From NCBI RefSeq assembly GCF_026213295.1, contig NC_079412.1, positions 19,528,033 through 19,592,032 of the forward strand: 64,000 nt of DNA. Direction: 5' to 3'. Positions 8,801-64,000 of this stretch are shown in pieces; the first letter of the stretch is position 1, and each line of letters begins with the position of its first letter. This DNA is from Gadus chalcogrammus (Eukaryota; Chordata; Actinopteri; Gadiformes; Gadidae). Under the pieces are notes generated by a model that saw nothing but the letters and a program-made list of their open reading frames with translations, was not told where the DNA came from and made no database searches. Both the position numbers and the translations under genes were made by a program.

Positions 8801-11800
8801 TTCTGCGCAAAGCATGTTTGAGAAATCAGCACATTAAGATAAATGTAGTTGGCACACAAGCTATTTTAGATTTTTGTAATATGGAATTATTTCGGGGGGA
8901 AAATGCCGTGAAAAAATATACGCACAGTGCGTTCAGGATTAGGACTGATATAGCATGTGTCAACCTAGGCCTAATCAATTGTGTTTTAATATCTTTAGCA
9001 TTCATATTATTGCATTCTATTGTTTTCGTAGGCTAATCTGCTGTTGGCCTTGATGGAGTGGTATTTTAACCCTTTTTAACCCCATTTTCCTGCGACATTC
9101 CTGCGTTTCCCCCTCCTACAGAGCCCATTTCAGCACCGTGTCAGTGGACAGTAACAATCCTACGAATGTTGTTAGTGCAGTGCACGCGTGTTAATGTTAA
9201 GGGGAGTTTCGGTAAACGCTCCAAAGAAATTTACGATGGTTCGCAAGATCCATCGTGAGAATGATCATACGAGCGTGGATCCGTCGTTATCGGGAAACGA
9301 GGCCCTGGGCCAAATATCATTTACTGGTGTGGCTTTTTTTTGTCTGTTCTTAAAATATATACCATATTTATTAATACAAATGTCAGAATAGATATTGTGA
9401 AAGTTCCATTAATGCTTCACAATATATACAGTGGTAGGCATACGTTTAGGCACCCATGCTAAAGTTGACTAAAAAGAGGAATAAAAAATCTTCTTTTGGA
9501 AATTGATCTTAATGCCTCAATTAAACAAATGAGGAAAAATCCAACAGGGGCAACAGGGTGCCCCTGTTGGTGCCCCAACAGGGGCACCAACAGGTGCAAA
9601 TTTGCATGGAATCATGCAAATTTGCTTTGCATGATTTTGAATATTGTATCGTAAATAAATAAATGTTCACCATTAAAATACAGGGGTCATAAGTATGGAC
9701 ACCCCTATGTTAATTCCCATATTAAAGATTAAAAGCCAGTTATTTCATGGATCCAGGATACTATATATCCTGATTAAGTTCCCTTAGCCGTTGGAATTAA
9801 AATAGCCCGACATCATCACATGCCCTTCATCATACCTAGAGATTGGCATGGTTTTATTTCAGTTAGCCTATTAGCTGGTTTGATTTGCATTGAGAAATCA
9901 TTAGGCTAACTAACAGCTGTTAGGCTAACTGAAAAGAACCATGCCAATCTCCAGGTATGGTGAAGGGTATGTGGTGATGTGGGGCTATTTTAATTCCAAA
10001 GGCTACGGGAACTTAATTGGGATGTATTGTTTCCTGGATCCATGAAATAATTGGCTTTTAAAAAAAAAATGGGAATTTAACATATGGGTGTCTATACTTA
10101 TGCACCCTGTATGTTAATGGACATTTAAAAAACATTTATTTATTCACGATACATTATTCATTCACAAAGCAAAAGGTGTCCTCACTGGTTGGATTTTTCC
10201 TCATTTGTTTAATTAAGGCATTAAGATCAATTTCCAAAAGTTTATTTTTTATTCCTCTTTTCAGTCAACTTTAGCATTTGTGCAAAGACTTACCACTGTA
10301 TAATTTACTATGTAGTAATTTTCTCCAAAGCGGTGTACAGTGAATTCAAACACAGGGAGATACAGGTCATTAGGAACAGGTAGGGGTCAGGCATCCAACC
10401 TTCCTGAAGGCCTACAGGAAGGTTGTGGACATTGGGGATCGAACCCAGTACCTTTTAAACCTGGAGTCCAACACCCAGTCTACTACTCTTAGAACTAAAC
10501 GTGGTTTTGTCCTTCTGGTTTCAGATGTGATTCTGTGGGAGGGGTGCAGATACAACCAGGAACTGATTCAACTGATTCTACATGTATTAAATATGTGGCC
10601 ATTGTGTTCATAATAATAGGATGCATATCTTTTATTATATTAGTCCTGGGAGGTAAGCGTTACATTCAACTCTTTCATGTATCATGTTACATTCAACTCT
10701 TAACATGTATCATGGTTGCACTAACATTACATTTCACATTACATTAAACTCTGACAAGTATCATGGTTACATTCAACTAACATATGTATCATAGTTACAT
10801 TAAACTAGCATGTATTATGCTTACATTAAACTAACATGTATCATGTTTACATTAAACTAACATGTATCATGTTTACATTAAACTAACATGTATCATGTTT
10901 ACATTAAACTAACATGTATCATGTTAACATTAAACTAACATGTATCAGGGTTATGCCGAATGATGGTGACTCTGTCCTAACATGTGTTGTTTATCACTTC
11001 ATAGCATTGTTTTATAGATGGCTGAAAATCAAAAGGGATTTAACTGGTAAGTTCTTATTCCACAATTTTTTTAACTGTGTTAATAAGTAACAAATAACTT
11101 ATTAATATCCAGTCATTTGCAAGGGTTACGGACTCACACCAAGTCAAAAGATATCGCTGTGATTCAAAACATTTAATCTAATTGTACCAGAGAGTCAGAG
11201 CCTACCTAGCAGAGGGACCAGAGTGGCAGACCTACTGAACAACATCATCTAGATATTAGATTATAGAATGGAGCTATCCATGTATATAAGACACTACTCT
11301 CATAGCTGGGGCGATGTGGCCAGCATAACGTCAGCTCAGTGGCGTTTATAACGTAGCTCACTGAGTCGTCATGACAACGCAGAGCAGGGACAAAGGGTAG
11401 AAAGACTTCTGTCCTTGTTTGACCACGATAATGGCAGCCGTCTCCCTACACGTATTCAGTCTGTCAAGATGTTCTTCTGTGTAGAGGCTAATTCAGGAAC
11501 TGGTTCAACTCAACTGATTCTACATGATTAGAATATATGGAGCAGTTCATAATAATAGGATGGATACGTTTAATAATATCAATCATAGTCTTGGGAGTTA
11601 AGGGTTACATTGAACTCTAACATGTATCATGTTACAATAAACCAACATGTATCATGTTTACAATAAACTAACATGTATCATGGTTAGATTTAAATAAATG
11701 AATCATTGGTTGGATTCAACTAACATGTATCATGGTTACATTAACTAACATGTATCAGGCTATGCTGAATGATGTGACTGCTGTCCTGACATGTTGATGT

Positions 11801-64000: not shown

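Follow-up and report, generated by a model that had tools for sequence, protein, structure and literature searches.

How does a membrane receptor come to have a cytoplasmic tail assembled from minute exons, which are accompanied, pair after pair, by dead copies of the exon for its membrane span? This question is raised by the locus C1:19528033-19592032 of walleye pollock, Gadus chalcogrammus (hereafter the window, the whole stretch of 64,000 nt that was analysed), which carries 13 pairs of separate exons, each formed by a micro-exon (A) and a mini-exon (B), across two genes for receptors of the tumor necrosis factor (TNF) family. The answer that we consider probable is that these exons encode the cytoplasmic part of TNF receptors in gadids, a tail extended by tandem duplication of a unit of dead transmembrane (TM) exon, A and B, and folded as a rod.

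The coding nature of the tails is apparent from the structure of the genes. In gene 1, 20 exons splice into a complete frame of 551 amino acids (aa) including the TM exon, the tail and the stop; its membrane span, read by eye, is a single TM helix, after which the cytoplasmic tail continues in frame. The pollock gene model P0010 corresponds exon for exon to the tail of gene 1, and the 391 aa of gene 2 that lie in the window are identical, residue for residue, to P0001. Both models take in every pair that their genes hold within the window, while gene 2 extends past it with two more pairs, its last exon being C1:19602021-19602230. P0001 matches the cysteine-rich repeats of TNF receptors (PF00020, E=1.6e-20, 73.6 bits vs a cut-off of 29.4), and the TNFR_c6 match on the E1/E2 stretch of gene 1 reaches 24.7 bits, under the same cut-off of 29.4; no Pfam match to a death domain was found in P0001 or P0010 up to E=1. 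The elements of the two arrays are the following, with positions counted from the first letter of the window.

10525-10652, + strand, live TM exon of gene 1 (128 nt, phase 2 to 1)
11005-11046, + strand, J1 of gene 1, fused first A/B exon (42 nt)
11485, 13116, 14013, 17629, 19328, 20645 and 22862 (match starts within 11485-22979), + strand, seven dead TM copies of gene 1
A 11818-11843 (26 nt), B 12639-12669 (31 nt), + strand, pair 1.2, class I
A 13775-13797 (23 nt), B 13929-13965 (37 nt), + strand, pair 1.3, class II
A 14386-14408 (23 nt), B 17146-17182 (37 nt), + strand, pair 1.4, class III
A 17959-17984 (26 nt), B 18850-18880 (31 nt), + strand, pair 1.5, class I
A 20406-20428 (23 nt), B 20560-20596 (37 nt), + strand, pair 1.6, class II
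A 20949-20971 (23 nt), B 22377-22413 (37 nt), + strand, pair 1.7, class III
44496-44626, + strand, live TM exon of gene 2 (131 nt)
44957-44998, + strand, J1 of gene 2, fused first A/B exon (42 nt)
45453, 47306, 48326, 52460, 58484 and 58972 (match starts within 45453-59081), + strand, six dead TM copies of gene 2
A 45805-45830, B 46839-46869, + strand, pair 2.2, class I
A 48086-48108, B 48240-48276, + strand, pair 2.3, class II
A 48620-48642, B 51304-51340, + strand, pair 2.4, class III
A 52867-52892, B 58007-58037, + strand, pair 2.5, class I
A 58765-58790 (26 nt), B 58926-58962 (37 nt), + strand, pair 2.6 (21 codons)
A 61552-61574, B 61705-61741, + strand, pair 2.7, class III
A 63314-63339, B 63473-63503, + strand, pair 2.8

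These elements were located with nhmmer models, one for each of the three pieces (TM exon, A, B), which return 15 TM copies in the window, eight in gene 1 (one live, seven dead) and seven in gene 2 (one live, six dead); an earlier, sequence-only reading of this DNA had arrived at the same numbers of dead copies (at least seven and six, respectively). The serial duplication of a TM, A and B unit, which it proposed, is supported by the sequence, and the sizes and phases that it gave are true of all 26 separate A and B exons: A is 23 or 26 nt long (phase 1 to 0), B is 31 or 37 nt long (phase 0 to 1), and each has an AG acceptor, a GTAAG donor, the correct phase and an open frame. Because a pair is frame-neutral, any number of pairs can be spliced in series, as is seen in the gene models. 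Other generalities of that reading have to be narrowed. The pairs are indeed frame-neutral, but they do not always add 19 or 20 codons, since pair 2.6 (26+37 nt) adds 21; consequently the three-pair modules stand, but the second one of gene 2 counts 60 codons instead of 59. A TM copy precedes the pairs in general, but none is detectable in 61741-63271, upstream of pair 2.8, where a 14-nt minisatellite of about 55 copies (62398-63208) occupies the place expected for it. Conversely, the TM copy at 22862 is followed by no A/B pair, only by the stretch that normally precedes an A exon.

Nor is the organization in separate A and B exons continuous throughout, for the first pair of both genes is the single fused 42-nt exon J1. 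By eye, J1 begins with five bases that agree with an A exon; the eight that follow, TTTTATAG, correspond to the end of the intron that precedes B in other units. In gene 1, the former B acceptor TTTTATAG thus seems to have become coding sequence, and a deletion running from A into the acceptor of B would explain the fusion. In gene 3 of the same cluster (C1:19611189), A and B of the first place are still separate, with 26 and 28 nt. The introns after the B exons of pairs 1.2, 1.4, 1.5, 1.7, 2.2 and 2.5 are just 3-7% apart, even across differing exon classes, which looks like a sign of recent duplication or of intron homogenization.

The same arrangement recurs beyond the window. The genome (629.9 Mb) was searched with a B exon region and with a dead TM copy, and all scored matches, namely the best 40 of 56 candidates and the best 40 of 49 candidates, respectively, sit on C1; the counts are lower bounds. 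The C1 DNA covered amounts to 164 kb around the window (with 3,732 N) plus 70 kb in four stretches (one of 40 kb, three of 10 kb). Splice sites were chosen without use of phase, and a pair was counted as complete when both acceptor and donor were found, A/B matches below 30 bits (the fused J1 included) being left out. Complete pairs number six in gene 1, nine in gene 2, eight in gene 3, sixteen in gene 4 and eight in a gene at 27.64 Mb, while three stretches near 28.0 Mb have one, two and one; 51 of these 51 pairs are in phase and 51 of 51 are free of stops. The B exons of this wider set measure 37 nt (28 exons), 31 nt (20) and 28, 34 and 58 nt (one each). Outside the count of complete pairs are one orphan B of gene 3, which is open, and, at 28.068 Mb, a broken A of 25 nt and a broken B without donor. 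In gene 4, the linker and minisatellite exons also occur at an inner position (C1:19666958-19668057), before the last three pairs, as though this end of the gene had been copied, and its 16 pairs may therefore be 13 plus a duplicated end. One of the single-pair stretches matches E2, E3, TM and the last exon, with no E1 in its 10 kb; it may show the state before amplification.

What, then, is the origin of the dead TM copies? Among the 36 full-length TM copies, seven are without a recognized donor motif (including the live TM exon of gene 3), leaving 29 to be judged. Only four of the 29 are open over their last 34 codons: the live TM exons of genes 1, 2 and 4, and a copy at C1:19661208 within gene 4, which has lost the common stop and is open to its donor. 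That stop, at one and the same codon (Cys in the live exon), is present in 19 of the 29, and such sharing indicates that one dead copy was amplified together with A and B. The dead copies are thus best explained by amplification of a TM exon that was already dead, and repeated independent silencing is rejected in view of the common stop. The sequence-only reading had envisaged that extra membrane spans were actively silenced; this part of it is not sustained, because the dead copies diverge at the rate of introns (5.4%) and nothing shows active selection on them. The idea that the dead copies serve as hidden exons finds no backing in the gene models, since neither P0001 nor P0010 includes one. 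The duplication would have been hierarchical, involving first the unit, then the module of three units and then the gene.

Tails of this kind are not confined to pollock. In a sample of 65 proteins returned by protein searches, which defines the sampling outside gadids, the model of the unit matches 11: P0001, P0004 and P0010 of pollock, P0003 and P0008 of Pacific cod, P0007, P0029, P0035 and P0038 of Atlantic cod, and P0005 and P0016 of Arctogadus. The presence of the unit in other Gadus and in Arctogadus proteins rules out an assembly artefact. P0029 of Atlantic cod has the class order I-II-III twice, as in the window, so that the loss of frame in close relatives, which would have spoken against the sequence-only reading, is not what is found. 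Two Boreogadus proteins, P0023 and P0025, show by eye the sequence of J1 or of the first A, with no match to the unit. The unit is found in none of seven other proteins, P0046 of hake and six non-gadiform ones of Cololabis, Odontesthes, Umbra and Kryptolebias, a result that rests on gene models. The relatives bear various TNFRSF names in the databases, including 14-like and 5-like (HVEM/CD40-like), and weak sequence matches in PDB are to TNFRSF21, 11B and HVEM. Compared with fish receptors of the TNFRSF14 (HVEM) or TNFRSF5 (CD40) type, those of pollock have a similar cysteine-rich ectodomain, one TM helix and a tail that ends with a TRAF-type motif, but in the larger genes covered 6 to about 16 A/B pairs have been added to this tail. 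The sequence-only reading knew of no TNF receptor with such a tail, and no printed description of one was found in the titles and abstract openings of the open-licence papers listed. The remaining exons of the two genes are listed here.

E1 5678-5807, E2 5919-6044, E3 6323-6455, + strand, ectodomain exons of gene 1 (GT-AG, open frame)
24022-24083, + strand, linker exon of gene 1 (62 nt)
24367-24835, + strand, minisatellite exon of gene 1 (a repeat of 51 nt that encodes a 17-aa unit about 9 times)
25777-25988, + strand, last exon of gene 1 with the stop; PAEET, which fits Px(Q/E)E, is encoded across its junction with the preceding exon
E1 34397-34526, E2 34638-34763, E3a 36299-36370, E2b 37681-37806, E3b 38065-38197, + strand, ectodomain exons of gene 2

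The minisatellite at 24367-24835 is a perfect 51-nt repeat of 9.2 copies, and its proline-rich 17-aa unit varies in copy number among related proteins. In gene 2, and in P0001, the ectodomain (36299-38197) has E2 and E3 twice, the first copy of E3 ending early and being spliced onward. Elsewhere in the window, 28835-30303 is 84% identical to 3305-4727 and has at about 28870-28925 an apparent decayed first exon of another TNF receptor. Introns of both genes contain, on the minus strand, fragments judged by eye to be reverse-transcriptase-like (14788-16334 and 49131-50461), which are about 96% alike over their common block.

The sequence-only reading had also suggested that selection keeps the cytoplasmic pieces. 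Selection on A and B is borne out, but it appears to be diversifying rather than a simple keeping. When matching units are compared, seven pairs in all, differences amount to 70 of 411 sites (17.0%) in the A/B exons, against 33 of 615 (5.4%) in the dead TM copies of the same unit pairs (p=1.5e-9); for introns within 120 nt the figure is 180 of 3327 sites (5.4%) in eight pairs, three flanks of pair 2.4/2.7 having been dropped because they are not collinear. In steps of 25 nt, the difference stays at 2-8% in introns between 100 nt upstream and 150 nt downstream, while A reaches 20% and B 15%; at greater distances upstream the introns climb to 10% and 19%, where repeats begin. Within the A/B exons of the window, the proportion of differences is 0.224 at non-synonymous sites (pN) and 0.089 at synonymous sites (pS), with p=0.001 and some units used twice, and pS is no different from the introns (p=0.24). 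In 14 matched pairs of the wider cluster, pN is 0.177 and pS 0.074, a ratio of 2.4 (bootstrap 1.4-4.6), with class values of 0.139 and 0.126 (I), 0.148 and 0.045 (II) and 0.240 and 0.056 (III). Introns may be homogenized by conversion, which calls for caution; conversion alone is insufficient, however, because silent exon differences would rise too, yet they stay near the intron level. Taken together, the comparisons support diversifying selection on A and B. When gene 1 is set against gene 2, the other exons and their flanks differ by 9.2% vs 8.1% (E1), 7.2% vs 21.8% (E2), 2.3% vs 6.2% (E3), 5.5% vs 2.2% (TM) and 4.9% vs 7.9% (J1), the gene 2 coordinates of E2, E3 and J1 being off by one; E1 and TM thus nominally exceed their flanks by 1.1 and 3.3 points.

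As to the shape of the tail, for which the sequence-only reading had offered neither fold nor mechanism, AlphaFold2 predicts confident helices over most of it, with three pairs forming one bundle. In this prediction, class I B and class II A make up a short helix, whereas a long helix, which joins consecutive bundles, runs from class II B through both exons of class III to A of the next class I. Three unlike pairs would accordingly form one module, a predicted three-helix bundle. Since its first helix continues the TM helix, the tail is expected to project from the membrane as a rod, with a variable linker and minisatellite and one TRAF-type motif, PAEET, presumably at its far end; extra modules would lengthen the rod and alter receptor clustering or the spacing of adaptors. 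The predicted arrangement, helical bundles linked by one continuous helix, resembles that of spectrin and plakin repeats at about half length, the pollock repeat having about 59 residues. A spectrin repeat has roughly 106. The fold match is weak, and Foldseek gives no significant match for the tail. In sequence, Pfam gives no spectrin match for P0001, P0010, P0029 or P0035 up to E=1, and PDB no match for P0010 up to E=1. Analyses of hydrophobic-core conservation and of helical moment in the tail gave no positive result. If real, the likeness is likely to be convergent.

Two points have slightly lowered our confidence in the reading of the tail as a duplicated, folded rod. First, the contrast with the TM copies is not independent: most full-length copies are open downstream of the common stop, and the truncated copies that could be judged, 11 of 12, are open over their last 22 codons, so that openness of TM copies provides no independent control. 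Second, the cap is not general, for the invariance of T and Q seen in a hand-picked set (13 sequences of class I, 10 of class II) does not hold at large, a T-x-x-Q box being present in 23 of 51 pairs.

Among the alternatives, the one that survives best is a cassette system, in which alternative splicing would select the number or class of phase-neutral pairs and give each gene a tail of variable length. Each of the 51 complete pairs is phase-neutral, in the model P0008 the linker follows after two pairs, and P0002 and P0004 run, by eye, into an apparent intron after part of the array; yet P0008 comes from another species and possibly another gene, and the inclusion by P0001 and P0010 of all their pairs in the window leaves such a system rather unlikely. 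We regard as clearly less plausible that the modules are tail-only cytosolic proteins, transcribed from the intron before J1 and acting perhaps as decoys of receptor partners. The translation of P0010 does start in that intron (10653-11004), at 10914, giving a tail without receptor, and P0035 of cod is similar by eye; however, long genes commonly come out of gene prediction in pieces, gene 1 has intact exons for the ectodomain and the TM span that share the frame of its tail, and P0001 joins ectodomain, TM and tail in gene 2.

A further idea, which fares slightly worse and is improbable, is that each B exon adds a TRAF-binding motif, longer tails recruiting more TRAFs. For TRAF1/2/3/5, PMC6125299 gives the motifs Px(Q/E)E, Px(Q/E)xxD and Px(Q/E)xT. 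TPxQ is present in 12 of 51 pairs and Px(Q/E) in 15 of 51 B peptides, but the full major motif occurs in only five of 51 pairs (three of 13 in the window), Px(Q/E)xxD in one and Px(Q/E)xT in none; P follows T in only 12 of the 23 T-x-x-Q boxes, and the segments are predicted to be helical. Given this scarcity, the tail as a plain TRAF array was rejected. PAEET at the tail end of gene 1 fits Px(Q/E)E and is a putative TRAF-binding motif. Finally, that the exons are neutral debris, left open after tandem duplication, has in its favour that short exons may in part be open by chance, that the dead TM copies show duplication to carry junk and that A and B are broken at 28.068 Mb, but it is scarcely credible and was rejected, given that phase is kept and stops are absent in 51 of 51 complete pairs, that random substitution would leave the units stop-free with P=0.006 (11 of the 13 window units, 8 comparisons, 93 changes) and that pN exceeds pS.

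The duplicated receptor tail invites comparison with other genes built of small or repeated exons. The micro-exon genes (MEGs) of schistosomes likewise encode proteins mostly of many short frame-preserving exons, the symmetric ones spanning 6-36 bp according to PMC5825161; MEG products, however, are secreted or membrane-anchored proteins of parasites, whereas the pollock exons encode the inner tail of a vertebrate receptor and, unlike MEG exons, preserve the frame only as pairs. Arrays of the Dscam type also consist of exons duplicated in tandem within one gene, but those exons are mutually exclusive and extracellular, whereas the pollock models take all pairs serially and intracellularly.

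We may tentatively go further and propose, as a possibility that we hold to be short of probable, that a new miniature spectrin-like rod domain was born in the gadid receptor lineage when a juxtamembrane exon pair was serially duplicated with a dead TM exon, its surface coming under intracellular diversifying selection as part of an immune rewiring in a lineage reported without MHC class II. The excess of amino acid changes weakly suggests that the rod surface is in conflict with intracellular partners of host or pathogen that themselves change, or else is tuned to them. The tail exons, being readable yet fast-changing, suggest a new signalling part that is still evolving. Contrary to the usual expectation, it is the inner tail of an immune receptor that diversifies, while the ectodomain (E1-E3) did not in the one comparison available.

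In evolutionary terms, this may be a case in which one can trace stepwise, on one chromosome, how micro-exons gave birth to a folded domain, from a stretch with one pair to a gene with up to 16, the dead TM copies serving as an internal neutral clock. The loss of MHC class II in cod is mentioned in PMC13403563, and tnfrsf14 appears among the differentially expressed genes of Atlantic cod in PMC10706248. The main text of PMC5894186, on haddock, contains neither 'TNF' nor 'tumor necrosis'. Since Gadiform fish are reported there to be without MHC class II, enlarged TNF receptors may matter for the immune responses of these fish.
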